DNA of 64,000 nucleotides from Argyresthia goedartella (Eukaryota > Arthropoda > Insecta > Lepidoptera > Argyresthiidae), in the NCBI GenBank assembly GCA_949825045.1, contig OX463824.1, positions 28,118,001 through 28,182,000 on the forward strand, read 5' to 3'. Position numbers and translations under genes: made by a program. The notes under the pieces are model-generated. The model searched no databases. It had not been told where the DNA came from and was given only the letters and a program-made list of their open reading frames with translations. This document shows, piece by piece, positions 39,097-62,605 of this stretch. Every line of letters begins with the position of its first letter. Positions within the stretch are counted from its first letter, which is position 1.

Positions 39097-39196
39097 TAGT
39101 TATTATAATTAATAAGCATGAATAAATAATTACAAAATTATTAACAGCAAGGTCTGTGTTGAGCAAGATTACCCCATACAGTCCCGTCATTTAAAA
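39097..39196 (-). mobile_element. Jockey-type LINE 3' fragment (L-B), copy 4
   Basis: TTATTATAATTAATAAGCAT, TTATTAACAGCAAGGTCTGT, CATACAGTCCCGTCATTTAA match 16240-16325 and 20110-20205. Cut at CATTTAA, where the mariner-like coding sequence begins. Confidence 0.75.
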
Positions 39197-39690
39197 ATTT
39201 TTTCGTCCGAAAAAATAATTTCCCGATGCTTTTTTCCCGCGTACCGCTTCAACAAAGCGCGGCATCTCTTCAGTCTCAGGTCCATTAAACGAGCGTCCAA
39301 ACGATGTCCTGTTTTTCTTCGATATGCCCTAAGCCCTAAGTCTTCATTTAACACCCTTTTCACCGTGGTCCTGATTAACCCCATCTGAAGGGCCAACAGT
39401 TTCTGCTTACGTATGGGATTTCTTTGAATTCGCGCCTTCACAGCTTTTATCACTGCTGGAGTCCTAACAGAGCAAGGGCGACCACTTCTTGACCTGTCAT
39501 CTACACTAGAGTCTTCATTGTATCGTTTTATGGTACGATAAACGAATCTTTTGTTTATATTCAAATTTTTCAGTAAGTCGAAAATCTGAATTGGCGCGTA
39601 ACCGCAACGATGCAACGTAATAACTGTGACACGGTCTTCTTTAAGTGTCCACTCCATATTTAAAAATGAGGAAAATTCTAAAAAGTACAC
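39187..39690 (-). pseudogene. Tc1/mariner-superfamily transposase, N-terminal half
   Basis: 167 codons. The N-terminus MEWTLKEDRVTVITLHRCGY (from about residue 12) starts a helix-turn-helix domain, followed by FVYRTIKRYNE, the linker DDRSRSGRPCSVRTPAVIKA, a second HTH-like region (RKQKLLALQMGL, RTTVKRVLNEDLGLRAYRR) and the first catalytic aspartate in IIFSDEKIF at the end. The DDE/D triad needs two further acidic residues, which are missing: the frame runs out at a junction with LINE fragment L-B. The second Met (MEWTL) is the more likely start. A candidate inverted-repeat end is near 39790-39805 (minus CACAGTCAGGTCATAAGTTC after a TA). Inactive. Subfamily (mariner vs maT-like) not decided. 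Confidence 0.87.
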
Positions 39691-39806
39691 ATTTTTATTT
39701 TCATGAAAAATTCGAAATTCGAATTCAATAAACTTTTTTGTGGCCAGCGTTCTAAATTCAAAAGTTTTTATTGTGTGACAGAACTTATGACCTGACTGTG
39801 TATAAT
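39691..39806 (-). mobile_element. 5' untranslated region and probable inverted-repeat end of the mariner-like element
   Basis: On minus it runs from CACAGTCAGGTCATAAGTTC to the transposase start. The flanking TA fits Tc1/mariner target choice. The other end is lost, so the terminal repeat cannot be confirmed. Confidence 0.45.
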
Positions 39807-40844
39807 AAGATTTAATTAGGATAATCCTACTCTTACCATCGCTCAGAGCCAGATAAGTTAGGCGCGGGCTGTACCCTTAGCAAATATGAGATAACGTAGC
39901 AATATTTAGTGAAGTAATGCTCAAAATCATTACGAACCAAAATTTAATTTAGCTTTAACTCCGCTCGCATATGGGTCCCTGTGCGTGCGGGGTTCGGGTG
40001 AGAGCAGCGGGAGGTAGCGGCAAACTCGAAGCGAACAGCTAGTGCCTATCTTTTAAATAAATATGTGGATGAAATATTTATTTGACGAACTCAATTCGAC
40101 TGTAGTTCCTAAGTGGATGACATCTTTGGTCACCCTACTCGGAAAGAGACAGATGGCCGTAGTTTGATTGTCCTTATCGGCACCTTATTCCGTCCACCGT
40201 ACTCAGTCCAGTTTGGGTAATACGTCCCTGGAAAGTAATTAAATGTTTGGCACCGAATGCAATGGGTAAGTCATTAAATTGGACCGCAGTGCTGTGTTTC
40301 ATATCGCCGGCGGGTCCGATAACTTGCTATTGCTCAAATGCAGTATTAGTGGGAGCAAATGCGTTTTGAACTGCAAATCGCATCAGCTCTACGGAAATGC
40401 GATTTTCTTTAGTTGCGGTAACCATCATGGTAAAATATGATGATTCTTTGAAGACATCTTCTGTGCAATGTGAATGTAGAGTCATCAAGTTTCCCGTAAT
40501 CATTCTAGTATCAGTATACTTACTTGGAAGGGATAAAACCGGACCTTATTAAAATGTTGACAAGGGAAACCTCATATAGGAGTCATATAAAAGTCGTATA
40601 AAGATGGAATCCTTTAATTGGCTGTAGTAAATAAGTAATTTAATTAAGAGAATTAAACTGTACTGCTCTTGGTTTTCTAAATAAATAAAATAAAATAAAA
40701 TATAATTTTGGACAACCCTAAACTAGCGGCTCTGTGAGCTTGTAGACCTCGCGAGCGACACAGGTATTTGCGTTTCTTTTTAATTGTTTTCTACCCCCCC
40801 ACAACCCCGGTGTATCGGAGGAACAAGTAAATTCATTATAAGAA
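39807..40844. other. 1.0 kb without a recognised gene
   Basis: Non-coding; a short AAATA-type run at 40678-40700. Confidence 0.4.
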
Positions 40845-46639: not shown

Positions 46640-48022
46640 AAAAAGTGGCCAAGTGCGAGTCGGACTCGCCCAGGGTTCCGTTGTAGCAAGTAATTAAGTG
46701 ACTGGATGTTTGTGTTGTAATTTTGTTTTTCATAGTGTTTGTATGAATGACAAAGTTATCTATTCGGTTTTTAGTAAATGTTGTTTATCTTAAAAACTGC
46801 TTATTTTTACAAGCTTTTATTTAGTTTCACCTGTCCCGTTGTCTGTCTGTCTGTAATCAAATCTTGCAAGTTAAATTTGATACACTTCCCGGTTTCCGAT
46901 TGAGCTGAAATTTTGCATGCATGTATAAATCGGATGACAATGCAATATTATTATGACATAGAGCTGATCTGATGATGGAGCTGGAAGGTGGCCCATAGGA
47001 ACTCCATAATTAAACGACGCAACCCCATCGAGTTTGGGCTCGTTTAATTTGTCTTGACGAGTAATTTGACACTAGATGGTAACCAGGGTCTGATGATGGA
47101 GCTGGAAGGTGACCCATAGGAACTCCATAATTAAACGACGCAACCCCATCGAGTTTGGGCTCGTTTAATTTGTCTTGACGAGTAATTTGACACTAGATGG
47201 TAACCAGGGTCTGATGATGGAGCTGGAAGGTGACCCATAGGAACTCCATAATTAAACGAAGCAACCCCATCGAGTTTGGGCTCATTTAATTTGTCTTGAC
47301 GAGTAATTTGATACTAGATGGTAACCAGGGTCTGATGATGGAGCTGGAAGGTGACCCATAGGAACTCCATAATTAAACGAAGCAACCCCATCGAGTTTGG
47401 GCTCATTTAATTTGTCTTGACGAGTAATTTGATACTAGATGGTAACCAGGGTCTGATGATGGAGCTGGAAGGTGACCCATAGGAACTCCATAATTAAACG
47501 AAGCAACCCTATCAAGTTTGGGCTAGTTTAATTTGTTTTGACGAGTACTTTGATACGAGATGTCCGACCCCAAAGCCGAGTTAAGTCTTTAGCAGGTCTG
47601 CAAATCGAAGAACTTGACTGCTCGAAGTAGACTTCGAAGAAACCTTGTAATGTTGATGCTTTAAAAGAAATGGATAGAATGAGAAACGTTACAAATAAAT
47701 AACTGGTGATTACATAACTAATTTAAACATTATTTTACCTTACTACAAATATGTAAAAAAAAAAAATACATATATAAATAAATAAAATACATAAACTTTT
47801 TTGGTTTCAGTTCCATGTATGGGCAGCCCCCTTTAATTATTTTAATTTTTCAAATTTTGTACAAAAATCGTAAAGCGGTTCACAGAATACATCTACATAC
47901 CAAGTTTCAACTATGTAGAATAGTTTCTACATAAAGTTGCTGCGACATACGGACGGACGGACGGACAGACAGACTTGACGAAACTGTACGGGGTTCCTTG
48001 TTTCTCTACGGAACCCTAAAAA
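46640..48022 (+). mobile_element. lepidopteran GAGTCGG/TACGGAACCCT repeat, long copy with tandem array
   Basis: Starts AAGTGGCCAAGTGCGAGTCG (palindromic GCGAGTCGGACTCGC) and ends TCTCTACGGAACCCTAAAAA, with GACGGACGGACGGACAGACA just before. The middle includes the 121-bp array. This start/end pair is a very common lepidopteran interspersed element; it has no ORF, so non-autonomous. Confidence 0.75.
46970..47574 (+). repeat. minisatellite, 5 x 121 bp
   Basis: Unit begins TGATGATGGAGCTGGAAGGT at 46970, 47091, 47212, 47333 and 47454, exact 121-bp spacing. Units 1-2 carry ACGACGCAACC and GGGCTCGTTTAA; units 3-4 carry ACGAAGCAACC and GGGCTCATTTAA; the last is diverged. Related dispersed sequence is at 55835-55990 on the other strand. 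Confidence 0.95.
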
Positions 48023-61674: not shown

Positions 61675-62098
61675 AAACTGAAGAAGGAATACCTGGGCTG
61701 GGTGACAATGCTGAGGCTGGTCTTATGAAACTGAAGAAGGAATACCTGGGCTGGGTGACAATGCTGAGGCTGGTCTTATGAAACTGAAGAAGGAATACCT
61801 GGGCTGGGTGACAATGCTGAGGCTGGTCTTATGAAACTGGAGAAGGAATACCTGGGCTGGGTGACAATGCTGAGGCTGGTCTTATGAAACTGAAGAAGGA
61901 ATACCTGGGCTGGATGACAATGCTGAGGCTGGTCTTATGAAACTGAAGAAGGAATACCTGGGCTGGATGACAATGCTGAGGCTGGTCTTATGAAACTGAA
62001 GAAGGAATACCTGGGCTGGATGACAATGCTGAGGCTGGTCTTATGAAACTGAAGAAGGAATACCTGGGCTGGATGACAATGCTGAGGCTGGTCTTATG
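61675..62098 (+). repeat. minisatellite, 8 x 53 bp
   Basis: Unit starts AAACTGAAGAAGGAATACCT at 61675 and every 53 bases to 62046, ending at 62098. Units 1-4 read GGGCTGGGTGAC and units 5-8 GGGCTGGATGAC; unit 4 also has CTGGAG for CTGAAG. 53 is not a multiple of three, so no repeated peptide is encoded in one frame. The array directly abuts the bacterial-type sequence at 62101. Confidence 0.96.
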
Positions 62099-62100
62099 AA

Positions 62101-62300
62101 TCAGAGTTCAAACTCATACACTTGATACAGTTTATCTCTTTCCAACCAACCTTAACTAGCTTGGAAATAACCTTTGCTGCAAAAACCTTTGTATTGTGCC
62201 AGTCTATTTCATCATGATAAGCTTGGCTCAGCGCAATAGAAGGTATAGACCTTGCGGCACCTTCCATTACAGCACCAGTTGTTCCTGAATAACAAATATC
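62101..62300 (-). pseudogene. surE: SurE 5'/3'-nucleotidase, C-terminal part, bacterial (Wolbachia-like)
   Basis: The minus-strand frame reads ICYSGTTGAVMEGAARSIPS, IALSQAYHDEIDWHNTKVFA, then AKVISKLVKVGWKE. SurE proteins have the metal-site region (N)xGDDxxYSGTVxAAMEG followed by xxIPxIAxS; here the D, YSGT and AMEG-like parts are clear, while the N-terminal NDDG metal site is absent. SurE dephosphorylates nucleoside monophosphates in bacteria; animals lack this family, so a bacterial origin is strongly implied. The wording (GAARSIPSIALSQ, W-NTKVFA-KVI-KLVKVGW) fits Rickettsiales, and Wolbachia is the obvious insect symbiont. It is fused in frame behind S1-domain sequence and degrades after VGWK. 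It cannot be functional. Confidence 0.85.
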
Positions 62301-62605
62301 TTCCGATGAGTGCACTAAACCTTCAATCCCAGTTCTAAATTCAACAAACAATCTATAATCTTCTATACTTGTTACATGACCCTTATGCACATTATCAACA
62401 GGATATTTTGACTCTACATCTTGCCAAGGGCTATCTTCTAGCTGCTTTGCATCTCAGGAAACATTCGCTCCTTATCTATTTTTATAATTGTAACTATTAT
62501 AGCCTGGCCATAAGCAAAAACTGCAGATGGATGACTTACTCTATTCCAAGAGATATCTGTAATATGTAGCAACCCATCTGTAACTCCCACTGCATCATGC
62601 AGATT
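62301..62605 (-). pseudogene. rpsA: ribosomal protein S1 fragment (two S1 domains), bacterial (Wolbachia-like)
   Basis: Minus strand from 62605: NLHDAVGVTDGLLHITDISW, NRVSHPSAVFAYGQAIIVTI, IKIDKER, then after two extra bases at 62463-62464 the other frame gives VS, a stop at 62454-62456, and AKQLEDSPWQDVESKYPVDN, VHKGHVTSIEDYRLFVEF, TGIEGLVHSSE. This is the order DGLLHITD-W-R--HPS...KQL-DPW...KYP-G---G-VT-I-DYG-FVE---GIEGLVH-SE of S1 domains 3-4 in bacterial RpsA. DYR replaces the usual DYG. At 62298-62303 it continues in frame into SurE. Both ends are truncated. The frameshift and stop show decay after transfer. Confidence 0.85.

Follow-up and report, generated by a model that had tools for sequence, protein, structure and literature searches.

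We analyzed a window of 64,000 nucleotides from the genome of the moth Argyresthia goedartella, namely C18:28118001-28182000. The genome assembly comprises 89 contigs and 1.109 Gb, of which the contig C18 makes up 33.3 Mb. The window contains joined pieces of two bacterial genes, rpsA and surE, whose best match among the genomes that we compared is a Wolbachia genome, G036. The features at this locus are:

61675..62100, no strand: 53-bp tandem repeat, 8 copies, adjoining the insert (repeat search)
62101..62141, no strand: 41-base stretch from the tandem array to the surE piece (filler or host)
62142..62596, minus strand: Wolbachia-derived insert, 455 bases (blastn matches to G036)
62142..62304, minus strand: internal piece of surE (5'/3'-nucleotidase; blastn, 95.7% identity to G036 C1:1057437-1057599; SurE domain)
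62300..62304, minus strand: rpsA-surE junction, where 12,782 bp of G036 are absent; imperfect microhomology, GGAA (rpsA) versus GGAC (surE)
62301..62596, minus strand: internal piece of rpsA (30S ribosomal protein S1; blastn, 93.7% identity to G036 C1:1070382-1070681; S1 domain; tree)
62454..62456, minus strand: in-frame stop codon TGA in the S1 part (translation, alignment to live Wolbachia)
62468..62469, minus strand: 4-base deletion relative to live Wolbachia, a frameshift (alignments)

A preliminary description of this DNA had reported S1 running in frame into SurE on the minus strand, and this is correct. The frame at 62094-62453 has 119 amino acids from stop to stop, with a partial S1 domain (Pfam E = 1.4e-5) and then a partial SurE domain (E = 2.5e-11). 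Inside this open stretch, the two gene pieces join in frame, without a stop, over 62142-62453. Two S1 domains had been proposed and both were found, but the second (62438-62605; Pfam E = 1.3e-6) is in a different frame from the fused one. The shift of frame had been attributed to a 2-base insertion at 62463-62464; it is really the 4-base deletion near 62468/62469, which has an equal effect on the frame. The stop codon at 62454-62456 is where it was described. The insert had been given as 62101-62605; an insert is present, but our matches bound it at 62142-62596, and 62101-62141 and 62597-62605 lie outside them. NCBIfam labels the pieces as 30S ribosomal protein S1 and SurE, with scores under the whole-protein cut-offs, as expected because only gene pieces remain.

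Both remnants are truncated at both ends. The rpsA piece corresponds to nucleotides 724-1023 of the G036 rpsA coding sequence, minus 4 bases. The rpsA and surE matches overlap at 62301-62304, and we place the junction at about 62300/62301 instead of the original 62298-62303. On its rpsA side, the junction reads ..CATCGGAA, and surE goes on with GATATTTG..; the intact surE of G036 reads GGACGATATTTG. The most that the two ends have in common is GGA.

Comparing the window to 120 kb of G036 with blastn gave two matches only, with E values of 5e-128 and 6e-70, so chance similarity is excluded. Both matches are on the minus strand of G036, and rpsA is upstream of surE, as it is in the window. The wStur genome (minus 381 bases of one contig) gave the same two matches and, in addition, two short and weak ones (51-52 bases; E = 0.009), which we regard as chance. 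When we scanned contigs with the 119-residue frame, we confirmed five loci among 22 candidate stretches: two from Wolbachia pipientis, one from Wolbachia sp., and two labelled as Rickettsiales bacterium. A protein search found 19 proteins (14 of the SurE type and 5 of the S1 type), and the named SurE-type matches (10/14) were all from Wolbachia or Rickettsiales. Our widest search covered 41 genomes from the genus of wStur. All 41 have a match: 36 match both halves, and five (G013, G017, G021, G027, and G039) match one half only. The top genome is G036, with 94% identity for rpsA and 96% for surE.

Phylogenetic trees also support the Wolbachia source that was originally suggested. The rpsA tree has 30 bacterial rows, drawn from the 40 genomes in which rpsA was matched. 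In it, the window copy is sister to another relic in the same contig, at C18:10.25 Mb (98/82), and both adjoin G036 (95/86); the bootstrap had not settled. The surE tree, with 27 of a possible 36 bacterial rows and a bootstrap that likewise had not settled, puts the window copy within a 19-row clade that includes G036 (99/98), with no finer support. By these alignments, the insert nests within Wolbachia diversity, and the surE tree resolves a broad clade only.

Some proteins that are annotated to other arthropods are Wolbachia-like versions of ribosomal protein S1. One (P0018) is from a 13.7-Mb contig of the bee Calliopsis andreniformis, and it may be another such transfer, or contamination. 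The others are from the spider Trichonephila clavata (P0037) and the medfly Ceratitis capitata (P0053), and are again transfers or contamination.

How did rpsA and surE come together? It had been proposed that a rearrangement joined two separate genes. To compare gene order, we used the 27 genomes that have both halves on one contig. In six of these (G036, G035, G006, G040, G011, and G034), rpsA is upstream of surE on one strand, with the two 12,945 to 14,471 bases apart. Since they are colinear in G036 and five relatives, a single internal deletion suffices for the fusion, and the rearrangement is not needed. Gene order is not conserved more widely: the remaining 21 genomes have at least about 49 kb between the two, and near relatives differ. 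For instance, rpsA and surE are 53 kb apart and on opposite strands in G038, and they are 415 kb apart in G030. We infer the colinearity of the donor from G036, and the exact donor strain may differ. We also looked for a live Wolbachia genome with the same fusion. In none of the 41 genomes does a single match cross both halves, and the shortest gap among the 27 is 12.9 kb.

Could the two pieces be neighbors by chance, as Wolbachia fragments that were inserted separately, or ligated beforehand, without any colinear deletion? The donor's gene order may differ from that of G036, and nuclear pieces from separate parts of the Wolbachia genome were reported to be adjacent in Brugia malayi (in the available portion of PMC3849323). 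On the other hand, the order and orientation of the pieces agree with six genomes that have a spacing of about 13-14.5 kb, including the closest one, G036. We think that chance neighbors are unlikely, and that the apparent gene fusion is most likely the scar of a deletion.

The absent interval (12,782 bases of G036) contains ffh, and rpsA itself is interrupted. Both ffh and rpsA are generally essential in bacteria, so the deletion of about 12.8 kb probably arose outside a living bacterium. It could have taken place during the joining to the chromosome or later. A plausible mechanism is end joining at a site where the two ends are similar over no more than 3-4 bases. The remnants of the genes would then have met in frame by a 1-in-3 chance, without selection.

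If the insert is a nuclear copy without a function, then its substitutions should lack the signature of coding constraint, and the existence of a close live relative (94-96% identical) makes this a clean test. Relative to G036, the rpsA piece has 15 substitutions (3, 9, and 3 at the three codon positions) and the surE piece has 6 (3, 2, and 1). Three of these are synonymous, 17 are nonsynonymous, and one creates a stop, so the protein is altered or cut short by 18 of the 21. As a control, we compared the whole rpsA gene of the live strain G038 to that of G036. There, the codon positions have 8, 11, and 41 substitutions, and 41 are synonymous while 19 are nonsynonymous (19/60). The relic differs from this control by Fisher's exact test, both for synonymous versus the rest (P = 2.3e-5) and for third positions (P = 1.1e-4). 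Five further live controls (G030, G035, G004, G011, and G034) gave P = 5.7e-6 to 5.4e-4 for synonymous versus the rest and P = 9.8e-5 to 3.1e-3 for third positions. The comparison is inexact, as the controls are whole rpsA genes and the relic has only parts of rpsA and surE. The relic at 10.25 Mb behaves likewise (13 synonymous and 39 other substitutions; P = 2.1e-7 to 8.3e-4 versus six live strains). The pattern of substitutions is that expected of an unconstrained nuclear copy. Together with the 4-base deletion and the stop codon, it indicates that the insert decays in the host, as first proposed.

These results bear on whether the fused frame might be an expressed and domesticated S1-SurE protein. 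The halves do join in frame without a stop over 62142-62453. However, we looked for an ATG in the fused frame and found none in its S1 half; the first one is within the SurE part and opens an ORF of just 57 codons. Also, the frameshift and the stop lie just upstream, both domains are truncated, and there is no sign of constraint relative to the six live strains. A domesticated protein is highly improbable, and judging from the sequence, the relic probably yields no protein.

The insert differs from G036 by 21 changes over 455 bases, or about 4.6%. At a butterfly mutation rate of 2.9e-9 per site per generation, the insert would be very roughly 16 million generations old.

On both sides, the DNA next to the insert has no match to Wolbachia, as represented by the wStur genome and 120 kb of G036, and the left flank also has no match in any of the 41 genomes (in a search without a positive control). 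The 41-base stretch at 62101-62141 has no match to the 120 kb of G036. The units of the 53-bp tandem array are nearly identical to each other, and the array ends 41 bases from the surE piece. We had considered a Wolbachia origin for this array, but none of the 41 genomes matches it (in a search without a positive control), and we dropped the idea. Among the matches listed, there is no second copy of the near flanks, the array, or the 41-base stretch in the host genome. More precisely, other matches to the left 641 bases are confined to the first 91 bases (among the matches listed, with 40 of 85 candidates scored), and other matches to the right 704 bases are found only from base 248 on (among the matches listed, with 40 of 319 candidates scored).

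At C18:28196390-28199660, or 16-19 kb to the right of the insert, are three segments that are similar to one Wolbachia gene. They are parted by non-matching DNA, like exons. The middle segment, which is the one we tested, is NDUFS7, and its top match among solved structures is LD31474p, which we take to be a Drosophila protein. NDUFS7 is a subunit of complex I and is nucleus-encoded in animals. We therefore rejected these segments as Wolbachia DNA: they are the host's gene for a mitochondrial complex I subunit. Their presence also argues against C18 being a W chromosome, without settling it; C18 is not obviously a W.

We also considered whether a transposon with terminal inverted repeats might have captured the insert. 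Between the flanks, 27 of 1,000 shuffles gave a match as good as the best one, which we set aside as weak, and of the 25 pairs of inverted-repeat arms listed (out of 60), none brackets the insert. The direct similarity of the left and right flanks was equalled in 19 of 300 shuffles.

The rest of the window has repeats of its own. It carries a reverse transcriptase frame, and there is a tandem array with 121-bp units at 46968-47562 (about 5 copies, 97% matches). A match to mir-2780 in Rfam, which is presumably a silkworm microRNA family, lies at 39281-39368, inside a minus-strand winged-helix (transposase-like) frame at 39187-39876. This is the one pointer in the sequence to a moth or butterfly as the host, though the "microRNA" may belong to a transposon.

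The non-Wolbachia near flanks, the 33.3-Mb contig, and the NDUFS7 segments agree with the earlier view that the insert is in a host chromosome; as assembled, it is embedded in host chromosomal DNA. The borders are those of the assembly, so one might imagine an artefact, or a contaminating Wolbachia contig that was joined to host DNA. But the flanks are non-Wolbachia on both sides, the insert shows unconstrained decay with a stop and a frameshift, and the same genome has further Wolbachia-like fragments. An artefact can hardly be the explanation. We conclude with high confidence that the locus is a small, old, and decayed nuclear Wolbachia insertion (NUWT) with a colinear internal deletion. Under this model, DNA of a Wolbachia close to G036 would have entered the germ line of the host, the colinear stretch from rpsA to surE would have lost about 12.8 kb, and the relic would then have mutated free of coding constraint.

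To find other Wolbachia-like DNA, we searched three 13-kb stretches of G036 against the host genome. These had 24, 4, and 16 matches, at about 12 sites:

C18, at 0.24, 10.25, 14.06, 28.18, and 32.38 Mb (search with the G036 stretches)
C18:10246179-10264512: the relic at 10.25 Mb (L009 and L019), which covers G036 1066077-1072098 (about 6 kb of the donor) with gaps and insertions
C9:16372539-16418123 (16.37-16.42 Mb): a cluster, largely of an IS5-type transposase stretch, with longer matches at 77-89% identity
C21, at 11.84 and 20.04 Mb; C12, at 19.23 Mb; C20, at 20.07 Mb; C29, at 9.63 Mb; and C4, at 21.04 Mb (search with the G036 stretches)

Not all of these sites are alike. The matches on C29, on C4, and at C18:0.24 Mb are only 39-55 bases long, and the match on C20 is only 78% identical and is a candidate for Wolbachia derivation. 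The cluster on C9 is possibly a large old insertion or a set of separately mobile elements. The matches on C9 and at C21:11.84 Mb, which are largely to the IS5-type transposase stretch, may have a separate history.

The relic at 10.25 Mb overlaps the rpsA piece of the insert. The relic is old, but 5.2 kb of its region exist in two copies with 99.7% identity, which makes the duplication a recent one. Over 247 shared columns, the window copy and this relic share 3 changes relative to G036, and they have 9 and 12 private changes. Of the 3 shared changes, two are found in none of the 30 bacterial rows, and the third is common there. The shared changes could go back to one donor or to a nuclear copy from which both descended early on, and the alignment does not separate the two.

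This raises the question of whether the insert was cut out of a larger nuclear relic and relocated; the source could be the relic at C18:10.25 Mb or another that has since disappeared. The sister grouping in the rpsA tree (98/82) and the two changes that are in 0/30 bacterial rows would be explained. But a DNA search found no second copy of surE in the host genome (4/4 candidates scored; strongly diverged copies could escape), and the relic at 10.25 Mb lacks 33 rpsA bases that the window copy keeps (G036 1070382-1070414). Also, the private changes far exceed the shared ones; if the two copies do have a nuclear ancestor in common, they must have separated from it early. Overall, relocation seems doubtful to us, and we prefer an insertion with its own colinear deletion.

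All five of the C18 sites (at about 0.24, 10.25, 14.06, 28.18, and 32.38 Mb) hold pieces of the same 13-kb Wolbachia stretch. Perhaps there was a single ancient integration into this 33-Mb chromosome that was then broken up and scattered along C18; we offer this tentatively, and lean mildly against it.

Among the publications listed, in a partial coverage of the literature, we found no report of an rpsA-surE fusion relic. The insert is a new example of a nuclear Wolbachia insertion and not a new kind, and its history is simpler than first proposed. As described in the accessible parts of PMC12693587 and PMC3849323, the NUWTs of filarial nematodes are small fragments that are mostly non-functional and have disabling mutations. 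In the latter source, as far as it was available, most of the nuclear Wolbachia pieces of B. malayi are 100-200 bp, and pieces from separate parts of the genome can adjoin. Our insert is similarly small, looks non-functional, and has disabling mutations. In contrast to those cases, the host is an insect, and the insert is a single colinear segment from which a large internal part was deleted, by chance without breaking the frame.

Among Lepidoptera, the W chromosomes of Limenitis camilla, Craniophora ligustri, and Laothoe populi contain dozens of Wolbachia genes (in the accessible text of PMC10658929). The Argyresthia insert is also Wolbachia DNA in an insect chromosome, with several pieces per chromosome; unlike those transfers, it is tiny and decayed, and C18 has NDUFS7 near the insert and is not obviously a W. 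In Melitaea cinxia, a possible Wolbachia sequence of 350 bp, part of one gene and with over 96% identity, was described as unconfirmed (in the part of PMC5704228 that was available). That case is also a short Wolbachia gene fragment in an insect genome, but our insert joins two genes and shows a loss of constraint.

The locus is a warning for annotation: when two bacterial domains appear fused in frame in an animal genome, a single deletion may have joined them by chance. More broadly, nuclear Wolbachia relics preserve a record of the symbionts that once infected a host lineage, including those that it may since have lost. If one integration was indeed scattered along C18, then a past infection by a near relative of G036 would have left a fossil that extends along the whole chromosome, with the relic in the window as one of its shards.
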